In this document: piece after piece, positions 1,659-50,900 of the stretch | How positions within the stretch are numbered: the first letter of the stretch is position 1 | Layout: each line of letters opens with the position of its first letter | Assembly: GCA_016098155.1 (NCBI GenBank) | Contig: JAAAJB010000034.1 | Span: forward strand, 1 to 64,000 | Reading direction: 5' to 3' | DNA from: Actinomortierella ambigua | Taxonomy: Eukaryota; Mortierellomycota; Mortierellomycetes; Mortierellales; Mortierellaceae | DNA: 64,000 nucleotides | Notes under the pieces: model-generated | The model's input: only the letters and a program-made list of their open reading frames with translations | What the model was told of the DNA's origin: nothing | Databases searched by the model: none | Program-made: the position numbers and the translations under genes

Positions 1659-4703
<3,045 letters not shown>

Positions 4704-7861: not shown

Positions 7862-10800
7862 ATGGCCTTTCACACCTCCTACACCACGCCGCCAGACCCC
7901 AGTGGAAATAATGGCTCAGGCCTTCCACCAGGCAGCCGTGTCAACCCACTTGCTCCTATCCAGTATACGCCCAAGAATCCTTATCAGCCGTCTCACCCAT
8001 CTCGTGCTGCCACGCAACGGAGAGACAACCGTGGCAGGTCGCCATCAGGCGCCTCGGACCTCTCGACGTACAGCGGCAGCACGTCTACAACCATTGTATC
8101 AGGTGGGCGTGTTCTGGAGACGATACCCGATAACAAAGTCTTGCCTCCACCACCAGTGCCAGGCAACTCTCGGCCGTCACTCCAACATGATCTCAAACAG
8201 TTCATCAATGAGCTGTCTTCTGAAGTGAATAACCTACAGATAGCATCACCGCCGCTTCAGCCGCGGCCATCACTCAGCTATGGTCACAGCCACTATGATA
8301 GCGGGCATCCAACGCCTCCATCACTGCACCAACAAGTGCCGATCGTCCCGCACCAACATCAACCGCAGCATCATCATCCCCATCATCATCAACAGCCACA
8401 TCAGCAGTATCAGTATCAACAGCATCAGCATCAGCAGTATCCGCAGGTGTTCACCCCTGCGTCGGACAATGCCGATCACCCTGCCCAAGGAAATCCTTAT
8501 GGCGTTGGCCAAACACAGCCTTACCCTCAGCCCAGCCGCCATCCCTCGGGAGCATCGACTGCGTCCTACTCCATGGGCTATTCATTGGACTCGTCAACCT
8601 ATGGCCCCTCTTCGATTGTACGCTCCTCCACTGGATCCATTGCCTCGCAGAATAGCTGGAGCCAGCCATCGTCACCTGGATTCCCGCCTGCGGCTGGTCT
8701 AGGCTACCACAGTTCGTCCGACCAATACTCGTACGAGCACCGCCATCAGTACCCCTACCAGTATCAATCGCATGTTTCAGAGGAGGCACGACAGCTGATC
8801 GACTTTAACCCTGGTATCTTGTCCACAATCGCGGTCTCCTTCCGTGAGAAGATGCTGCAGAACGAGGTCAAGCGATCAGAGTCTGTCAATTATGGCCTCG
8901 AGTTCCCTGTGACCTTCACGGGCAAGGAAGCTATTGTAAGGGACCTATTTACTTATGAGAGGGAGGGACAGGCATGGCTGCGCTGGTCAGGAAGAAAGGA
9001 GGGGACAGAACAGGGGAGGGGGGAGGGGAGAGAGAAGGGAAGGTGAGAAGGAGAGTCGAAGCTCGGCCGGAACTCAGGGACAATAGTTCGGGTCACAAGT
9101 ATCTTACGTCCTAAATTTGAACGTTAGACCATAACTAACAATTGCCTAATCTTCCCATACTACTCGGGCTTTTCCGCCGTTTACAATTTCGTCGGTGATC
9201 ATTGTTCTTCTCTAGGATGTCATTATTGAGCTTACAAACGTCGACGACAGGAGACACGGATTGGCCATTGCACGGTCGCTGGAGAGGCAGCTGTTGTTCT
9301 TTGGTGGAGGCCTGCTTCAGGTGCTATTTGATTCGAACAGCGATCAATACTTCTTCTCAGAAGCTACACTCGCTTACAACCCTGGAAAGGACAACTTTCC
9401 CACTGTTCCGACGGGCGTGTTCCCGTACAGCACTGCATGTTACAGCCCTCGCTGCCATCCTGGTGCGACTTGCTACTCTTACCTCTGCCCTAATCGCAAG
9501 TCGGTGGTAAGTTTGCAGTTGGTGTTTTGCTCCCACCCTTTCAGTCGTGCTCTTCTCAATTAGAGAGATGAGATACGATAAATGCACTGATGGTTTCTCG
9601 CTTGCTAATTATCATCAAATTTTCACATGGCTCCATTCGCTTCTCCATTTGTAGGGAAGTATTCTTGGACGACAAAATAGCGATGTCTCAACATCGAGCC
9701 AAGAGAAAGTCTGGGCTAACTCCGTTCCCTCAAGTGTTGTCGAAGCTGCATCCAAGCAGGAGAGAAATCGCCAGGAGGCTATTTTTGAGGTCATTCAAAC
9801 TGAAGCCAACTACTGCCGTGACCTTGAGCTGTTGGACGAGGTACCTCAATTATTCTCACGCTAGAAAGGACCAAAAGGAAAAATTATTTGAACCAATTTT
9901 TTTTTTCGTTTCGTATCACACGATCTAACATCATCCTCTATCTTGATTGACTAGATCTTTATTAACCCATTACGTGCTGGTGGTATTGTGGATCCGAGCA
10001 AGGTCGAGTTGCTGATCGAGAATGTTTTCATGAACTACCAAGAGATTCGCCGGCTGAACAAGAACCTCCTGGCTGCATTGAGGGAGCGGCAGGCAGAGCA
10101 ACCACTAGTGGAGGCAATTGGTGATGTTCTTCTGCCTCATATTATGGGGTTCGAGAAGGCATACATGGAATACGTCCCTCGAATTGCTTTAGCCGAGTTC
10201 GCTCACAAGAAGGAAGAGGCCTCTAACCCAAGGTTTGCAAAATTTTTGCAGGTATGTAGTCTCAAATCTTTGACCTCTGTGAACTATTCTCTATGAACGT
10301 TCGTCCATCTACGTGCGTTTTGCACTATCTAGATTAGATGCATCGACTGACTTGTATGTTGCTTCGTTCTGAAATCTAATAGGAATGTAGCCGGCATCCT
10401 GAAGCTCGTCGGCTGGGCTTGCATCATTTTGTTGGTCAGCCCTACCAGCGCATTCCTCGATACCCATTGCTGCTGAAGGAGGTCATCAAGAGGACAGATG
10501 AAAGTGTGAGTGACCGTGAAGTTCTACAGGAGGTGATCCGTGTTTGTACAGAGCTGGGCAAGAGCATTGATGCCCGTATACCCGAGACCAACAAGAAGGT
10601 GCGCCTGCTCAAGATGCAGGATAAGGTGGTCTGGAAGACTGGTGAGGTCCCTCAAGACCTCAAATTGGATGAGAAGAATCGCAAGCTGCATTATGAATGT
10701 ATCGTCAAGCGCCGCTCCAACCACTCCGTCCAGGTGCTGGAACTTCGACTCTTTGTGTTCGACCACTTGCTGCTGATGACGAAGGAAAAGCGCGACAAGA

Positions 10801-17849: not shown

Positions 17850-19666
17850 CTATTGTGAAGTCGTAGAGCCAGCCTTCGGGCGGACGCGCTCCCATCGTTG
17901 CCGAAAGAGCTGCTGGATGCGTTCCTCATCCAAATCGACCTCGCCTTCCTCCTCGATCGTCTCATCGCTGTCGACGTCGTCGTCGGCTTGATGAAGCAGG
18001 TGCTTCTCCACAGCATCCTTCGGAGCGCCGTCGTGGTTCATCGTGGCAACGGTGGCCGACAGTGTGGCAGGGCCCGAACCGAGGTTCAAAGGCGCGACGC
18101 CGACACGCTGATTTTCCACGTCAAAGACGATATAGTTGTTCTTGATGAAGACATCGCCAATGATCATAAAGGAGGCTGAGCTCATTTGGATGCCGGAAAA
18201 GCACATACCAGCCCGATCGGTCTCCTCGCGCACAATGTCAGAAAACGGAATCTTGAAACGCTTGCCCTCGATATCAAACTCGACTCTTCCTTCAGGTTCC
18301 AGGCTGGCCAGGTTACAGGGAACAGCCCAGGACTGACCGTGCTCTTGGGCGCCCTTGATCTTGCGATGAATGCCCCTCGCAAGCTTACTCGGCGCCACCA
18401 TCAAGGTCGTGCCCGTATCCATGATGCCGGAGATGGGCTCGCTAATGATATCTTCGTCCTTCTTGTCAGCACCGCCACCGCCAATGGAACCGTGGCGGCC
18501 AGTCTTGTTCTTGTTTCTCCGCGAGTATGAAGAGATTGACATGAGCGAGCGATATGGCACTCGATGATCGTTGACGTACACGCCGCGGATGTCGATCTGC
18601 CAATACCTGGCCTTGGTCACGCGTGTGTAGGTGATATCATGGCCGGGCTCGACGCGCGACATATCCAGATCGCCAAAGAGGACCTCACCGCCGCCATGGA
18701 GAGATGCTTTGCCGAGGTAGAAGGAGAAGATAGCCTTCTCAACCAGGCCTTGGTCTACCATATTTTCAAAGACCGTCTTCGTTGACGCGATGCTGGACGA
18801 GAGCGTTCCAAATGCGAGGCCCATGATCCCGTCAATGGTGTCATCGAATCCGGCGGACTCGGAAAGAACCATAGCCAGTTGCTGATTCTTGACGTGGATG
18901 CCGTCGATCGTCACGTCGTCATGTCCCAATCGACCTTCAGCATGCGACATGTCGCCGTAAGTGATATGCCATGGCTGACCGTTGGCTTTAAAGGATGTGG
19001 AGGCTGAAGGGTCGTAGTGCGAGGTACCCGAGCATTCGGTGCATGCCGTCGTGGAAATGATGAACTGGCTCGACCCTGTGTCAAAGTCAATCTTGAATGA
19101 CTGGGGAGGCTCACCAATCATAACCGTGCCATAGTACTAGGATGGAGAAGAAGGGAAAAGGCTCATTGGTGAACACGTCAAGGCTGAAGAGGTATTCAGC
19201 GTGAATACAAGACTCGTGAGAGAAGGGAGAGTTGAGATTGTTACCTCACGATCGAAATCATAATCGACCAAAGGAACACGAGCGAGGTTGGTGGTCGAGT
19301 CATCGTAGCCTTTCTGGCTTCCTTTGAGTCTTCCGGAGAAGTGCTTATGTGTTCGAAGGTTGTACTTGCGTAGGGCGTGTACCCAACGGCTGACAGTTGA
19401 TGGCCGAACAGGACCGTGGACAGTTTTGATTGGGATTCTACGTTTGGAAGTCCCCAATAAATTCGTACATAAAAAATTTAAAAAAAAATGTTTAAAGAAG
19501 GCGCGGTCAGCATTGAAATTTACTGGCTTGAATGCAACGAAGAGCGTATAGGTGTGGGTGGTGATGGCTGCTGAAATTACTTGAAGCCCCTCTTTGCCTC
19601 GGCTGCAATGGTTGTCGTTGAAAGAACAACGAGGAGAGCGTAGCCGATACTGAAGCTGAGCTTCAT
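17850..19666 (-). CDS. Secreted pepsin-type aspartic protease (family A1)
   Basis: Three exons are read: 19666-19581, 19437-19245 and 19136-17850, giving 521 residues. The first exon encodes a signal peptide (MKLSFSIGYALLVVL, then TTTIAAEA). The propeptide follows, and the mature enzyme begins before YYGTVMIGEPPQSF. The two catalytic aspartates are in IDFDTGSSQF (about residue 112) and SGIMDTGTTLMV (about 333). The flap tyrosine is in WHITYGDMSHAEG. A basic, Gly-rich insertion at about 294-320 (SRRNKNKTGRHGSIGGGG) before the second DTG is unusual and could be a processing or surface loop. After the final strand (VFDVENQRVGVAPL) comes an acidic tail (DDDVDSDETIEEEGEVDLDE) and no clear membrane or GPI anchor. 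It probably acts in the vacuole or outside the cell. Confidence 0.93.
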
Positions 19667-22034: not shown

Positions 22035-22048
22035 TAGCCTTCAATGAC
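22035..22048. repeat. Left target-site duplication of the SINE
   Basis: TAGCCTTCAATGAC directly abuts the T9 run (the A-tail on the minus strand) and is repeated exactly at 22457-22470. Confidence 0.88.
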
Positions 22049-22367
22049 TTTTTTTTTACACTGTGTTTATTCGTGACGTGGAAAATTCCATGGGGAATTC
22101 TAAGGAGGTTGGCCCTATTTGTACACCGCGGGCGGTCCAACGCGGGCTGGAATATAACGGGGTAGGAAGACGGGGGGTCGCTAGGATCGACTGGATGGAT
22201 AACGGAACACTGAAGACTACTTGGGGAGGGCCGAGGATACGAACGGGGGACAACGTCTCAACACCAGCTGCTTGCCGCAATGGTTCAATTTAAGGCTATT
22301 TAAAACTAGACCTTTTTGCCTTCGGGGAACCACGACCGAGGAGTGGAAAGTAAACCTTCCTTAACCT

Positions 22368-22378
22368 GGATTCGAACC
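22368..22378 (-). promoter_or_regulatory. Pol III B box of the SINE
   Basis: GGTTCGAATCC on the minus strand fully matches the B-box consensus GGTTCGANTCC that binds TFIIIC. Confidence 0.8.
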
Positions 22379-22429
22379 CAGGACGTTTCTCCCAAAACGT
22401 AGGATCTTCTGGTTAGTTGGCCCCTCTTA

Positions 22430-22441
22430 CCAACTAAGCCA
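22430..22441 (-). promoter_or_regulatory. Pol III A box of the SINE
   Basis: TGGCTTAGTTGG on the minus strand fits the A-box consensus TRGCNNAGYNGG and lies 51 bp upstream of the B box. Confidence 0.8.
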
Positions 22442-22456
22442 AGGCTCCCCCGGCCT

Positions 22457-22470
22457 TAGCCTTCAATGAC
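22457..22470. repeat. Right target-site duplication of the SINE
   Basis: TAGCCTTCAATGAC adjoins the 5' (tRNA-like) end of the element and is identical to 22035-22048. Confidence 0.88.
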
Positions 22471-23060: not shown

Positions 23061-23911
23061 TTACAGACGACGAGGCTTGGGGGGACGGCATCCATTGAAG
23101 GGGATCGGGGTGGTATCGGATATCCGCTTAATATCCCAGCTGGTCTTGGCGGTGATGGCCTTGAAAGCAGCATCACGGCCGGGACCAAAGCCCTTAAGCA
23201 AGACATGCAACGAAGCAATGTGGACGTTCTTCTCTTGGACTTTCTCAATCATCTTGCACATGGCCTGGTAGCCAGCCTCGGGGCCCGAACGCTGAGACTT
23301 CTTCAAGCCAGCCGCACCGGCAGAAGTGTTGACGATCGGAACACCGGCTGCGTCTGTGAGCGTCAGGATGGTGTTGTTCATCGACGCATGGATGTGCAGG
23401 TTGTGCGAGGCCAGGTGCCGTTGAGGGATCCGTGCCACATTCCGAACGCCAAAGATCGAATCTAAGGTCCGCGGCGAGCGCGACGAGGCCATGCGGTCCG
23501 ACACCCGGTTCAGCGTCTCCATGATCATGTCTACGCCCTCCAGTTGTGCGCTCGATGCTTTCCTGGGTGTGGTGGAAGTGGTGGTAGTAGTGGAGGTAGT
23601 TGTAGTAGCAGTAGCACTGGCTGACTCCTTGGCAGCAGAGGTCGACGATCCTGGAGCCACATCCTTCAAAAGCGCCTCCAAATGCTCAACTCCGGTCTCG
23701 CTCTTCGAGGCATAGGTTCTAAAAGCAAGTAGAGCAAGGAAAAGACTCATTAGTTTTCTAAATGTCTTTCCCGACCTGATCAGGGTAACAAGGTTCGGAG
23801 ACCATGGATGCTTTGCATGCGAGAGTGTGGAGCTGTTGAATACCTGACGGCCTGGAGCTGACCGAGGCGGTAGGTGGGCCGCAGTGAAAGACGAGCAAAG
23901 GAGGACAGCAT
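23061..23911 (-). CDS. Mitochondrial small-subunit ribosomal protein uS11m
   Basis: Two exons are read (23911-23844 and 23718-23061), giving 241 residues. The first exon encodes a basic mitochondrial presequence (MLSSFARLSLRPTYRLGQ). The junction reads LQAVRTYASKSETG, typical of an organelle cleavage region. A Thr/Ser-rich linker precedes the uS11 domain, which occupies the last 115 residues. It shows HIHASMNNTILTLTDAAG, the SAGAAGLKKSQRSGPEAGYQ block, VHVLLKGFGPGRDAAFKAI and the Arg-rich end NGCRPPKPRRL that contacts rRNA. It is a component of the mitoribosome platform. The gene is in tandem with the b561 gene, 258 bp downstream of that gene's stop. Confidence 0.94.
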
Positions 23912-24120
23912 CGTTGGGGGTGAGTTGATGGGTGGAGGTTGCGAGGTCGAAGAGGGTAATGCTTCGCGCGGAAATGAAAAACAAAGTCCCGTTGTTCTGC
24001 CCGGCTGCACAGGCACACACACATACAAAATGCGACGATCCTTCGGTGGCTTGTACAAAATGTTTATAGCAGTTGATTGACTTGATTTTATTCAATGGTG
24101 GGGTAATATGTTGAGTATAT

Positions 24121-24122
<2 letters not shown>

Positions 24123-24158
<36 letters not shown>
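24123..24158. repeat. (GA)n microsatellite
   Basis: About 18 GA units lie between the uS11m start and the b561 stop codon. Confidence 0.9.
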
Positions 24159-24163
<5 letters not shown>

Positions 24164-24169
24164 CAACGA

Positions 24170-25348
24170 TTAAGCAACAGACCGGTATCCGGATCTCTTG
24201 AAGAGGCGATCGGGGGTGATACCGGCAACCATGCCAATGGCGACCATGGTTGTAGCCAGATTCATGATCCACGGCTTGTCAAAGTTGCGGTTCATCCAAT
24301 TGGTGATGGTGCCGAGCCAGAGTGTGACCCACAGCAGTGCGATCGAGATATAGCCAAAGACTCGGTGCATGCGCAGCACGCGTGGCTGCCCAAAGTTACG
24401 GAGCAGGCGTGGGTAGTAGCCTACCAGCACACCAAAGACAAGCTGCACAAAGATGGAGAACATCGTCGCCAGACCCCACCATGCGTGGTTACTCTTAAAG
24501 TGGATCTTGTTCTGCATCGTCTTGTTCGCGTACACAGCCCAAAAGCCAACGGTCAGCAGAACGAGAGTCACTCCATGCAGAACAGCATGTACGGTCTTGA
24601 GACTTCGCTTGTGACGCGCAAGCTCCTTTGGTTGCAAAACCAGGATAGCTAGTGTGGACAATATCAAAAAAGGGGGGAGTCCAGCAAGGAGAACGAAAAA
24701 GGGGATGACAGGGTAAGGGGATGCGATGCGGCCAAGGTAAAAGAAAAGATGGAAGGATGGGTGAGCAATCTACTCCTAATATGGATGCGTGGGGTGTGAC
24801 TAAACTGGGCACGCACCAACTCCCTTTTTTTTTGCATTCATGGCCATCATTTTCCCCCTCTCTTCTTTCTTTTTACCTTCTGTTGCCAACAGGCCAAAAA
24901 GGCCCATGAGGATAGGATGCCAGGAATATGGGTAGGCCCAGGGTGCCTTGATAATGACAGCAGTGAGTGTGCCAAAGAAAAGTAGCACGCCCAATTGAGA
25001 GATGACAAATGCCACTTGGCGCATACGTTGTACAGTGAATGTACATGCAGAATTATCGTTCTTCTTGCGCCGTGCGGTAGTGGAATTGGGCTTCGGCAAG
25101 AAATCCGACTCTTCCTCCGATGAGGAATCGGAGCTATCATCGGTGGACGACGATCCTGCCGATCCTGAAGCGCCTGCAGGCGGACGAGGAGACGACGTAG
25201 CAGAGGGCACGATCGTTCGATACGAGTCGTCCGACTTTGAGACGGTCGACAAGAGCGAGTTGACGGCACTCGAGTCTTGTCGGGGGGCGTTGTTTGCCAG
25301 GATTGGCCGCTGCTCTTCAGGCGTCACTGTGCTGTCCTTGAAAAGCAT
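24170..25348 (-). CDS. Cytochrome b561-type transmembrane electron carrier
   Basis: Two exons are read (25348-24877 and 24648-24170), giving 316 residues, with the junction GLLATEAILVLQPKE. The start is the first ATG of the open frame. Upstream, a CTCCACAG acceptor-like site suggests a non-coding first exon. The N-terminal 120 residues are Ser/Asp/Glu-rich and probably cytosolic. Then come five or six membrane segments. Four histidines expected to hold two hemes are visible in SWHPILMG, KTVHAVLHG, KSNHAWWG and RMHRVFGY. This matches the cytochrome b561 fold, which moves electrons across membranes, often from ascorbate to ferric iron. No DOMON or ferric reductase flavin domain is fused. Substrate and membrane location cannot be told from sequence. 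Confidence 0.88.
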
Positions 25349-44973: not shown

Positions 44974-47900
44974 TTAGAATGGGATCTTTCGTGAAATGTC
45001 CTTGGGCAAGTAGCCGATAAAGACCAATGGACCGACAATGAGCATCACAAAGACGACCATGAGGAATATAAACAGCGCTCCATACGTCCAGGCAATTCGT
45101 CGACGCTGGGCCCGAAGCTTGGCTGACAAGATCGGCGGCCGGATCTGCTTGCTGGGCCGCAACCAGAAGAGCATGGTCGAATGCCACCGGTCAATCCACG
45201 GGATCAAGCAGATCGGGAACAGGAAGAACAGGATAGCATGGCCCATCACAAAGTCGCAAGCAAACATCGACATCTCGATAATCTTGCACAAAAACTCTCG
45301 CAGCGGCTGCGAGATCGCATGCCACCCGAGCCCTCGTCCATGCCATTTGCCCGTCCACCACGCTCGATTCGTCTCGTCGTGCTTAAACTCGCGCGTCAGG
45401 AAGAACGTGATCAGACACTTGAACACAAACCGTTGGACCGAGATTGCCGCAATGACACCCAAAACCGCATGTGAAAGCACCCACGCCTCCAAAGCCCATA
45501 GCGCCTCAAACGATGCCAGCAAGATAACTAACGCCGCTGCGTGGGCGATGGCTGCCATGATTGACCCAAACTTGACACAGCATAGGTTCATCAATGGTCC
45601 AAAGACAATCGAGACCCCAAACAGACCCGCCAGAACAGCAGCGTTTGCGAGCAGAGGCCCCACAGCAAAGACACCGATGCGAAGCAGACCGCTCGTGTAA
45701 ATGGGCGAACCGGACGGCGAAAAATCTGCTGGAAACGAATGCTCAAACATGTAGCAGGTGACACACATGACCATCTGCAGGAAGGGAAGCGCAATCTCTG
45801 ACATGAAGATCACCCCAAAGTTGGCCTTGGGTGTGTCGCCGCCTAGCTTTTCGGAAGGATGGCCTAGACGCTTGCGCTTGTATCCCGTGATACGAGTACG
45901 GATGGTGCGACAGTACGATATCCAAGAGGATGCATGTGTTCGCGAGTTGCCACGTGAGAGCCATCGTAAAAACTCGCGATAGTCCACCAAGAAATCAACA
46001 AAGGCAAACTGGTGAGGGTTGAAGAGGAACGGCGAAGTCACCAGTGCCAGGACAGACACCCAAAAGTAGGTCAGATGGGGCACCCACATGGTGATGGACG
46101 CAAAAATAAGCATCAGCAGCATTCGCATGCCCAGATACAGCGACGGCTCGGCAAAGCGTGAGTAGAGCAGCGAGAAGGGCGTCCGCGTCGTGGCAAAGCC
46201 GCGACCAGTCGCGATATAGCGCGCGCCTCCAAAGGACAGGTTCGTCAGGATCGAGTTGGTGTAGATCTGTGTCACAAACACCTCAAACAAGGGCGACAGC
46301 GACATGAAATGCTTGCCCAAGCGGAGAATGCTCCGTGCAAAGCCGCGCTCCATAAACTCTTGGAGGAACAATGGCAAAAAGGCGATGAAGAAGACAATAA
46401 AGATGGACAGGACACAGCGTTTGATCCAATCGTACACCGGCACGAGGTTGACGCATCCTGACTCGACATCATCGGAACAGACCTGTACAGACGACGCCAT
46501 CGAGCCGATAAAGAGCATCGACACAAGGAACATCTGTACCGACAACATGATGAAAATGTTGTTGATGTGGAATCCGGGGTGTGCGTAATAGAACGTCAAG
46601 AAGCGATCGAGGGGGAGCTGCGTACCGAGATAGTAGTATTCGCGCGACAACATCTGTTCACCCATGCCTGTGCCAATCTTGGTGTTGAAATTGAGAATAG
46701 AGCCAAATCCTAAATCACGACCCTTGCCGCATTGGTAGTACTCCGTATGCTTGATCGTTCCTCCGCGACTAAAGGCTGTCATGCCAGCATAGATATCCTC
46801 GTTCAAATGGAGCCCTTTTTGTGCTTTGCTGACACCTATAGGTCATTGTGTTTTTTTCGTAAGCAAATAGAAAGAAAAGAAAAAATGGGTGTTAGGTTTC
46901 GATAATGGTCCCTCGTATGAATCTCCAACCCAAGAACCCAAGCATTCTTCACGCCGAAAAATGAAACTTACCTCCACGAGTGGACATAAAGATAAAGTTT
47001 AGGAAATCAGGATGGCCATAGTGAAGCTTGCCTCCAATCTTGGCCATCATGCGCTGGGTGAGGGTACCAAACGTCTGCTCCTTGCCGGCGGCGACATCTC
47101 CCAAAACGCCAATGTTCTCCGAAAAGATGTACTCTCGAGCGCCCACGATGGCGACAGGCGTCGGCACATCTTTCGAGTCGAGCTGAGGTGAATAGGGTGA
47201 CACTGCAGGCATGTGGTACTGCTCAAACTCGCCAAGGACATTGCGGATCTTGAGGGCCTCTTCCAGATAGTTGTCCTGATTGGCGTCGACCAATTGAACA
47301 TACTCGCCTCGCGAAAAGATGATGGAGTGGTTCTGATTGTCAGACTTGCCGTCACCCAGGATTGGGTTCCCTGGCAGACGAATGCGGTACTTTGGCTTGC
47401 GCTTTCCGTCGGGCATTATCTCGCAATGACCGTCAATCAAGACCGAGTACACGACAGGCTCGCCTCCCTCGACCTCTGGTGGGCGCTCGTCCAGATAGGC
47501 AATCTGCAGATTCGGGTAGGCACGAAGAAGAAGTTCGGCGTTCTCGGCCTCTTCCTTGCTAAATTTTGTGAAACGCTGCATCGACACGACAAACTTGAAC
47601 TTTTGGCTCGACAGTCGGTTCAGTTCTCGCTCAAGACGCTCACCATTGCCGCCAAATAGCTGGACAACCTCGGGATTCTCGACACGGTACAACAACTTGA
47701 TCGCCTTGGCATAGTTCATGAAGCCGGAGACTGTACGGTACAACGTCTGAGCACGGAGTGACGCCCAGATACGGGTGCGGAGCGTGTACTCGGGAGCAGC
47801 CGACTTGAAGCCAATGCAGTAGAAGGGAAGGTCGTCATTCTTGGTCCGGTCAACGTCCCTGTTACTGTCCTTCTCGGCATCAGAGCCAGAGAGACCTAGA

Positions 47901-50900
47901 CCAGTGCTGCTACCAAACATATTGGACTCCTCGGCCAAGATTTTGGTATCGCGGACAAAGTTGTCCCACTCGACCGAATGTAGCTGTTTGAGGTACTCGA
48001 GCAAGGTCACGCGCGTGTTTTGGTCCTCCTCGCGGATAATCTCGCGCAAGGAGAGCAAAATCTTCTCCGAGTAGTGCGGCACCAGAACAGTGAATGTCGG
48101 CATCTCATCGACGGGCAAAGGCGAAGGAATCGAAGTCGACAAGGACTGGGCGAAAAAGGTGATTCGACGTTCAGCCTCCGAGTGCTGAGGGTAAAACTCG
48201 GTCTGGACCGAAGAATCCTCTTGAGCAACAAAGAACGTGGGGGCTTTGAGGGTACGCTTGTCGCCATGCTCAGAGGGCACCTGCTGGTACAATAATCGCT
48301 GGACGTGTTCAATCGACAACAGGTGCTCACGGTACATCGAGATGACGATTGCATTCCAGATCTGCGAGCAAAGCACTTTGGGCTTGAATTTGACGTCCAT
48401 ATCGGCCGTAGCGAGCAACTTTGCATAAATGCGCTTGGGCAGACGCGAGAAGATGTTTCGCCATGGTGTCCATATCGAAATACCGAGTCGGAACGACTGG
48501 AAGACGGAAAAGATGGTGTTCCAGATAACATACCATAGATAAGTGTCCAGGAAGAAGAGCACTAGGTCGACAAAGAACATGACAACGACCGTCAGGACTG
48601 GCATCACCGAGCAGAGAACCCGGCCAATGTACTTGTCTTCGCAGTTGGGGATGCGCTCAGAGTAGAGAGCCTTGAGCGGGTCCGTAAAGGAGACCACGAG
48701 GAAGAAATATGACTCGACAAGTTTGCATCCAAAGACAAGGGTCCACAGGAAGATGGAGAGCATACGATCGGATCGGTTCAGCTTTGGGTATGAGGCAGTG
48801 AACGTCTGCGATGCCAGATTTTTGCGCGACGTCTTGGATGGCGAGCCAAAGAGCTGGTTCGACGGGAAGATGGCAAAGACCAAGGTGGTGATGATGGAAA
48901 TGACAAACTGAATGATACCAATGATCAAGGACACAGTACCCTTGCGCTGAAACATGCAGATATACACCGACGGCCCAGCATTGATGATAAGCACCGTGAC
49001 CAAGATAATGAGCCGTCGCATCAACATGGCCGAGTTGGACCACGTCAGCGGAATAAACATAAACTCGCAAAAGACGCCGAGGAGCATGATGCTCGTCGCA
49101 ATGGCACCTCCCAAGGCAACCACCGACCACTGAACAGGAGCCTCATCTTCATCCTCGTTCAGGTATAGGAAGGGCGAGTTGTAGGAGGCATAGTACCAAA
49201 ACGAAACGACATGGATGATCCAGATGCGAGTAAAGTTGACTGCAAGATGGAGCCAGGTGCGCTTCTCGATGTAGGTCTTGCGGAACGCCGACGACCAATC
49301 CATCCGCTGGAGGACATTCCACCGCTGGCCGATATGGATATCAACGAGCCGTGTCTTGTCATCGAGTCGAAGACGTTCGATACCTTCGGGACTCCAAAAG
49401 GCCTGGTTAATGTCGTCGTAGCCGATGATTGACTTGTGGTCGCGTTCGCGCTTGACGTACTTGCCACCCATGGCCTCGTAGGATTGGTCGCGGATAAAGG
49501 AATACAGAGGAGTGATGACATGACGCAGGTACTCGCCCTCAGGAACGGGATCGACCATCTGCTGGCACTCTGACGATAGGTAGTAATCTTCGGCGCACTT
49601 GAAGATGAAGCAAAGGCATTCAGGTAGGAATCGGATCTGGGATGCCTCGCCCCAAAGCAAAAGGTACAGCGCCACTTGACGGGCCCGATCAAAGTGCGAC
49701 ATTTGGTGCATACGCGTCTTCCAATTGAGCTCGGCCGCTGCTAGGTTTTCGTGGTTCTCGACGTGGAGAGCGCCGGGCTGGGGGACCATCGAGTTGCGGT
49801 TGACTTTTTTGTTCTTGCCGGGCGCAGAATGGTAACCCATGTGGTCATCAAGATCCAGCTGGGCAGCAAAGTACCATTTGCGGTAGTTGGCATACTCTCC
49901 CCCGATGTAGTCGGCGTGGATGGTTGTTAGCGCCTGAATTGGACTCATGCGAGAGGCTCGCGAGTCGAGCATGGTCATGAAGGCATCGAGCTGGTTGCAC
50001 ATGCTGTCGTGTTGGAATCCAAACTTGCGAGTCAGATCCAGCATGATGCTTTCAATCTCCTCGCGCGTCACTGGAACTTGTCTCTCAATAGTCCATGATG
50101 GGTAAGGGTTTGGAGGAAGAGGAGGGGGGGAAGGCGGCGGTGGCTGCATGGGTACCCCATTTGGGTCGGCAAAAGGGTTAAAGTTGGACGATGAGCTGGT
50201 GCGGTGGTGATTCTGGTAGTGGTGATTGGAGAACATGCTGCGCTTGCTTTCTAGCATTGACAATAATGCATCCGAGGATGGGGCGATGCCAGTATAGCGA
50301 CCATCATCAGGACCACGAAGCGGGCCAAAGAGATCAACATCTGACCCATAATACGGGGATGGTGACGTGCGATAGGCATCAGACCTATTCGAATAAGCAG
50401 CCTCGCTAAAGGTTTCCGTGTCTGATTCCGATGGGCCAAGAGGAAGTTTGCCCTTTTGCCTCATGACAGCGAATTTGTCTCTTGGAGGTTGTGAGCCTGA
50501 GAATCCTACTGTGGAAGAATATAAGCTATGGTTAGCAGTGCTTCAGAGGAGCATGCTTTCCTTAGTGTGTCATGGCACCCTCTAATCCATCACTACTTTT
50601 CATGCGTCTGCTCCTTTCATTATGAATCACCAAGAGCTTCTTTTTCAATACTTACCATCACTAGTTAGCTCAGACTCCTCATCAGTGGTCGCCTGCGAAG
50701 GATGGATATACGCCTCCAGTGGAGGTGAGTGTGCAGGGTCTCCATGATAGTGCGACGGACTTCCTGTGCTGAGGCTCATTGGATGCCCAGGAAAGATGTT
50801 GTTGTTGCTGTTCAAGGGGTGCACAGGGTATTCTTGGGCTGCACTGGAGAATATTCTAGGCGAAGCCATCTGTCCAGGAGACAGTTGGTGCTGTGGGTAG

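Follow-up and report, generated by a model that had tools for sequence, protein, structure and literature searches.

A probable, very low-copy tRNA-derived SINE in the genome of Actinomortierella ambigua

The insertion and its flanking repeat

The window analysed here is a stretch of 64,000 nucleotides from one contig of the Mortierellaceae fungus Actinomortierella ambigua. It contains a glucan synthase frame (so assigned by its domains) at 46949-50464 and, some distance before it, an insertion that is read on the minus strand and lies between the two copies of an exact 14-base direct repeat. Across 99% of the query the glucan synthase frame has 100% identity to an Actinomortierella ambigua protein, and among the hits listed (120 of 1852) A. 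wolfii comes next with 91%. On either side of the insertion stand an aspartyl protease gene at 17850-19121 and a gene with a ribosomal protein S11 domain at 23061-24272. The features of this insertion, in window coordinates, are the following.

22049..22456, minus strand: the whole element, a probable SINE-type retroposon of 408 bases, with a duplication at both ends and a relative at G000:C838:48657-48930, which extends further with softer gap costs
22457..22470, no strand: target-site duplication TAGCCTTCAATGAC, copy at the 5′ end of the element, exact 14-base repeat
22430..22441, minus strand: Pol III A box TGGCTTAGTTGG, exact consensus, 15 bases inside the 5′ end of the element
22413..22437, minus strand: 8-bp inverted repeat TTAGTTGG...CCAACTAA in the head, from a predicted fold
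22364..22399, minus strand: segment resembling the anticodon and T arms of tRNA-His(GTG), the best of 40 tRNA sequences, score 40
22368..22378, minus strand: Pol III B box GGTTCGAATCC, exact consensus, also exact in the C838 copy
22166..22436, minus strand: stretch that BLAST aligns with the C838 copy at 88% identity (244 matches; 18 transitions and 7 transversions, with gaps)
22058..22363, minus strand: non-tRNA body, with no known RNA family and, in the genome, similarity found to the C838 copy only
22066..22071, minus strand: AATAAA motif close to the 3′ end, direct reading
22049..22057, minus strand: A9 tail touching the duplication, direct reading
22035..22048, no strand: target-site duplication TAGCCTTCAATGAC, copy at the 3′ end of the element, exact 14-base repeat

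Along the minus strand the element therefore opens with AGGCCGGGGGAGCCT, followed by the A box, the predicted hairpin, an anticodon-like arm and a T arm that carries the B box, and then by a body of about 300 bases, AATAAACACAGTGT, the A9 tail and the second copy of the 14-mer. AATAAA starts 14 bases ahead of A9, and the inserted DNA has the ends AGG...AAA. Both boxes were judged against the usual Pol III consensus sequences, and the target-site duplications of SINEs measure about 5-20 bp. In its particulars the original prediction of a tRNA-derived SINE at this site has held well. TAGCCTTCAATGAC, said to be perfectly duplicated, is present in the window at 22035 and 22457 only, with both strands searched; the A box and the supposedly perfect B box are both exact; the A9 said to lie directly against the duplication is flush with it at 22057-22049; and the acceptor and T stems are decayed as described, the former being unpaired and the latter having one extra or mismatched G on direct reading.

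The motifs of the element differ greatly in rarity. There are 41 A or T runs of nine bases or longer in the window and 28 exact A boxes, so that neither A9 nor the A box is remarkable by itself, and the exact B box is found once in 64 kb on both strands. Exact pairs of 14-mers that lie 40-600 bases apart have a mean of 0.15 in 20 first-order Markov sequences, and in the real window they fill 55 rows, most of which fall in simple or low-complexity sequence; the pairs elsewhere are 3921/4285, 22035/22457 and 57450/57501. The strength of the case derives from the placing of the A-tail inside one copy of the duplication, of the A box 15 bases inside the other, and of the lone B box at a suitable position between them. 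It is this arrangement of duplication, A-tail, A box and B box that makes chance untenable as an explanation, and no single motif does so. The first of the other pairs belongs to an exact 15-base direct repeat at window positions 3921-3935 and 4285-4299, with a spacing of 364 bases, which is not simple sequence.

The perfection of the duplication had also been taken as a sign of fairly recent insertion, which does not follow. With 0 differences in 14 positions the upper bound on divergence is, by arithmetic, about 19% at 95%, and at about 10% divergence, as between the two copies of the element, a perfect 14-mer is still expected about one time in four. The duplication thus says little about the age of the insertion.

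The tRNA-like head and the body

The head was compared with tRNAs of the same genome, represented by 58 ARAGORN calls at 50 loci with 40 distinct sequences; this set contains overlapping loci, a few sequences that differ by an end base and some apparently mitochondrial members, and it is incomplete (61 matches, with scores for 63 of the 709 first-look candidates). The best score of the 3′ half of the window head in this set is 40, with tRNA-His(GTG); tRNA-Tyr follows at 32 and the next best at 28. The maximum for 200 shuffles of the same half is 30, random 45-mers of the window reach at most 29 (n=993), and random 100-base stretches of the window reach at most 32 (n=495), against 40 for the head. 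The corresponding half of the C838 copy scores 36, 32 and 28 with the tRNAs, with a shuffle maximum of 29. Judged by these scores, the window head is tRNA-derived beyond chance, though unrecognisable as a tRNA today. The choice of parent is less firm: a short-word BLAST again ranked tRNA-His first, but with an E-value of 0.26, and under gentler gap costs Tyr, His and Phe were almost tied over the whole head. Because of this near-tie it is for the 3′ half alone that the alignments point to tRNA-His as the probable parent. For the 5′ half, the window copy scores 28 (shuffle 95% level 25, maximum 30) with no parent singled out, and the C838 copy scores 23 against a shuffle 95% level of 25.

A structural tRNA scan, put forward as the way to name the parental tRNA, shows no cloverleaf at default settings; the preference of the 3′ half for tRNA-His comes from the alignment scores, and the 5′ half points to no one parent. 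With these settings ARAGORN called no tRNA in the window, nor in either copy of the element with introns allowed, and at relaxed thresholds it returned several poor, overlapping folds that were given no weight. No Rfam family was matched by the window copy, even at E-values up to 1. A tRNA-Pro parent, an idea that came from the TTTGGG loop, may also be considered, as no tRNA-Pro is among the tRNAs compared. Among the tRNA calls elsewhere in the genome are two identical Ser-AGA genes at G000:C468:21956-22281 (L039) and two identical Val-CAC genes at C653:50433-50735 (L048), in each case in opposite orientation and about 155-165 bases apart.

In its internal spacing the head departs from a tRNA. 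The starts of its A and B boxes are 63 bases apart, and in the tRNAs the same distance is 42-45 bases in 29 of the 39 measured and 52-54 in six (Ser, Leu, Tyr); the other four were set aside, since misplaced boxes gave them spacings of -5 to 18, and one of the 40 sequences gave no spacing. About 20 extra bases, absent from ordinary tRNAs, lie between the A box and the anticodon arm and are predicted to pair with the A-box region. Within 22413-22437 of the window an inverted copy of the A-box region, CCAACTAA, comes after that region, in a part of the head that none of the tRNAs compared explains. The window head folds such that 5 of 200 shuffles do as well; for the C838 head 165 of 200 shuffles are as good, and part of the pairing of the window head is legible there by eye. 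The element as a whole folds no better than its shuffles (z 0.47; 70 of 100 as good).

Two parts of the body, scored against the tRNA set, stayed within the shuffle range. A dimeric SINE was considered on account of a B-box-like CGTTCGTATCC at element position 212, and rejected, since the surrounding 90 bases score 22, which is the shuffle median. The longest stop-free frame in the element has 80 codons, translated searches with two stop-free frames returned no protein relatives, and scans of IMG/VR with two core patterns gave 0 matches.

A diverged relative and the rival readings

In the genome searched (33.8 Mb, 846 contigs) two copies were found, the one in the window and one on contig C838, and the same two places were returned whether the query was the full element, its head, the element with its flanks or the C838 copy. 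An 18-base pattern from the T arm, allowed one mismatch, and one of 25 bases from the body, allowed three, each occur at these two places only, and backward-read controls of both gave none. These repeat counts are lower bounds, as very common words were skipped and strongly diverged copies may have escaped. The C838 copy is 88% identical across element bases 21-291 and has different flanks; of the 269 bases paired in a BLAST-like alignment 244 are the same, with 18 transitions, 7 transversions and gaps of about 21, 17 and 4 bases. The longest identical run, 52 bases across the B box, is of a length given by 2.3% of 5000 random placements.

Towards the 3′ end the relationship fades. BLAST of the last 127 bases of the element against the genome found itself only, as did BLAST of 131 bases from the 3′ part and flank of the C838 copy, so that the 3′ parts of the copies are not linked in this way. 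Softer gap costs carry the homology on until it stops a few bases short of AATAAACACAGTGT in the window copy; the 3′ part then scores 53.3 against a maximum of 46.7 in 1000 shuffles. The C838 copy is without the AATAAACACAGTGT end, its 5′ end is blurred, and its A box is degraded (best match with 2 mismatches). At its 3′ boundary AAAGTCATCTGCA, just past the end of homology, and AAAATCATCAGCA upstream agree at 11 of 13 positions, as good as 7 of 500 shuffles in a stretch chosen once the alignment was known. The repeat is consistent with a decayed duplication that would possibly belong to the C838 copy itself; if so, the head of that copy is enlarged by about 24 bases. As it is missing parts that the window copy has, the C838 copy seems an unlikely direct template, and the direct source of the window copy is lost, unassembled or missed.

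The element is therefore neither single-copy nor, with homology that stops at its ends and flanks for which no second place was found in the genome, part of a larger repeat. The original prediction had looked for multiple copies that share both ends and differ in their flanking duplications; what was found is one dispersed copy with different flanks, without the 3′ end and with a blurred 5′ end.

Collectively, a tRNA-derived head with A and B boxes, an unrelated body, an A-tail, a 14-bp duplication and a diverged relative with different flanks lead to the explanation judged best, with a probability of roughly 0.8, namely that a tRNA-derived SINE, of very low copy number in Actinomortierella ambigua, was inserted at 22049-22456 on the minus strand through target-primed reverse transcription. 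The tRNA-SINE reading first proposed for the site is thereby retained, with just two copies found and a probable parental tRNA. Weighing against it are the count of two copies in 33.8 Mb, the degraded A box and absent AATAAACACAGTGT end of the C838 copy, the lack of a LINE match at the 3′ end, an overall fold no better than that of shuffles, the absence of a cloverleaf at default settings and a nick site that is not rich in T. That so few copies were found, and that 52 bases around the B box are identical as though constrained (2.3% of 5000 trials), would also suit a stable tRNA-like Pol III gene, at C838 or at a locus now lost, of which a LINE would now and then make a retrocopy; the window copy would then be a retropseudogene and belong to no proliferating SINE family. 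This is unlikely in view of the degraded C838 A box and of the 25 substitutions and the gaps of about 21, 17 and 4 bases between the copies. Moreover, the 3′ end seen in the window copy has no counterpart at C838, and C838 may have a decayed duplication of its own, so that it looks inserted itself, and neither the Rfam search with the window copy nor ARAGORN at default settings on both copies identified such a gene.

Considerably less probable again is a processed Pol II transcript with AATAAA as its true poly(A) signal and a tRNA-like head that is incidental. The 14 bases from the start of AATAAA to A9 are a spacing usual for mRNA ends, and AATAAA is also present in some mammalian SINEs. However, the head matches tRNA above chance, the 5′ boundary of the insertion lies 15 bases ahead of the A box, as would be expected from Pol III initiation, and neither the 80-codon limit on stop-free frames nor the two translated searches without protein relatives favours an mRNA. 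The ends of LTRs are usually TG...CA, and an element that has an A-tail and ends in AGG...AAA can hardly be the solo LTR of a Helenus-like element, a reading given almost no weight. Frames with LTR-element domains do occur in this genome, and Helenus, as far as the text available describes it, is present in some fungi and has LTRs with A and B boxes, that is, a tRNA-like promoter, but its duplications are of 4-5 bp, and of 5 bp in fungi, against the 14 bp here (PMC10886601).

Proposed mode of insertion, fungal SINEs and LINE frames

For the tRNA-derived SINE favoured above, insertion may be pictured as follows. With the internal A and B boxes as promoter, RNA polymerase III would start transcription about 15 bases before the A box, at what is now the 5′ boundary of the insertion. 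A LINE would supply the endonuclease-reverse transcriptase that takes up the A-tailed RNA; the plus strand would be nicked at TAGCCTTCAATGAC^A, and the nicked 3′ end used to prime reverse transcription on the A-tail, with a staggered second nick 14 bases off giving rise to the duplication. The target nick site is without T-richness. A likely helper would be a Tad1/I-like LINE of the same genome that recognises the A-tail and not a shared 3′ sequence.

Aspergillus fumigatus belongs to a different fungal division from Actinomortierella. The fungal SINEs named in passages of PMC5063351 are, to our knowledge, all ascomycete. In those passages AfuSINE2 of A. fumigatus resembles the present element in being tRNA-related, with Pol III promoter features, a tRNA-unrelated region and a host genome with a Tad-clade LINE; it is 140-493 bp long, has duplications of 4-14 bp and is not abundant (PMC5063351). 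The 3′ end of AfuSINE2-1a is LINE-related, whereas the element here has no LINE match, the two being compared by description only (PMC5063351). Mg-SINE of Magnaporthe, at 472 bp, is likewise fungal and tRNA-derived and, according to the parts available, is thought to use the LINE MGL; again by description only, it differs in having about 100 copies and an MGL-like 3′ end, against two copies here, for which no LINE with a common 3′ end was found (PMC5063351, PMC2104539). Foxy of Fusarium oxysporum is also a fungal SINE, but is described as active with about 160 copies (PMC5063351). Helenus shares with the element, from what its source relates in the part at hand, the status of a non-autonomous retroelement with an internal tRNA-like Pol III promoter, and there the likeness ends (PMC10886601).

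The element is real and, as a probable SINE, ordinary in kind, in a lineage from which none is described among the titles listed in the literature searched; Repbase, SINEBase and most subscription papers lay outside that literature, and no priority is claimed for a SINE in Mortierellaceae. Within it, the accessible part of PMC10386755 has no word beginning with SINE, and that of PMC6416283 mentions SINEs and not Mortierella. A tRNA SINE in an early-diverging fungal lineage would widen the known range, as a modest extension with no surprise in kind, and would allow one to ask how such a family persists or is lost when it is nearly single-copy. A more specific proposal, which is tentative and for which the odds are somewhat short of even, is that of a so far undescribed SINE family of the Mortierellaceae, with a head rebuilt from tRNA-His, in which about 20 extra bases between the A box and the anticodon arm form a hairpin with the A-box region, present in one or two copies per genome and kept by a Tad1/I-like LINE that reads the A-tail.

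Reverse-transcriptase matches in the genome number 12. The frames on C322, C370 and C787 have domains of LTR elements; those on C740 and C130 are of LINE type, with endonuclease and reverse transcriptase, and both run off contig ends; the other frames examined have the reverse-transcriptase domain alone, apart from a second domain below threshold in one of them. The C740 protein is similar to R2 and L1 proteins whose structures have been solved. On C1 lies an 84% relative of the 3′ part of the C740 element, broken into short frames, with an RNase H domain downstream, and an RNase H in that place is a mark of the I/Tad1 group. Such a Tad1/I-like LINE would, somewhat more likely than not, be the helper. 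Between the region downstream of the C1 relative and the last 130 bases of the element there is no similarity (score 30, shuffle 95% level 34); this is the one LINE downstream region read, the C740 and C130 frames being cut by contig ends. Three options follow: a helper that reads the A-tail, a different LINE as helper, or a true LINE 3′ end that was missed.

A candidate target-site duplication of the C1 LINE, TTGGATTGGT after an A9, was rejected because the likeness continues, by eye, on both sides, as in a longer direct repeat. In G000:C1:44500-53500 (L086) a direct repeat of about 100 bases (by eye) is present near 1628-1730 and 8161-8261, its copies some 6.5 kb apart and flanking the decayed LINE, and it is not a target-site duplication. 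At G000:C212 (L076) 2341-4374, minus strand, a 678-aa frame combines a reverse transcriptase with a weak, below-cut-off match to the Dam methylase family.
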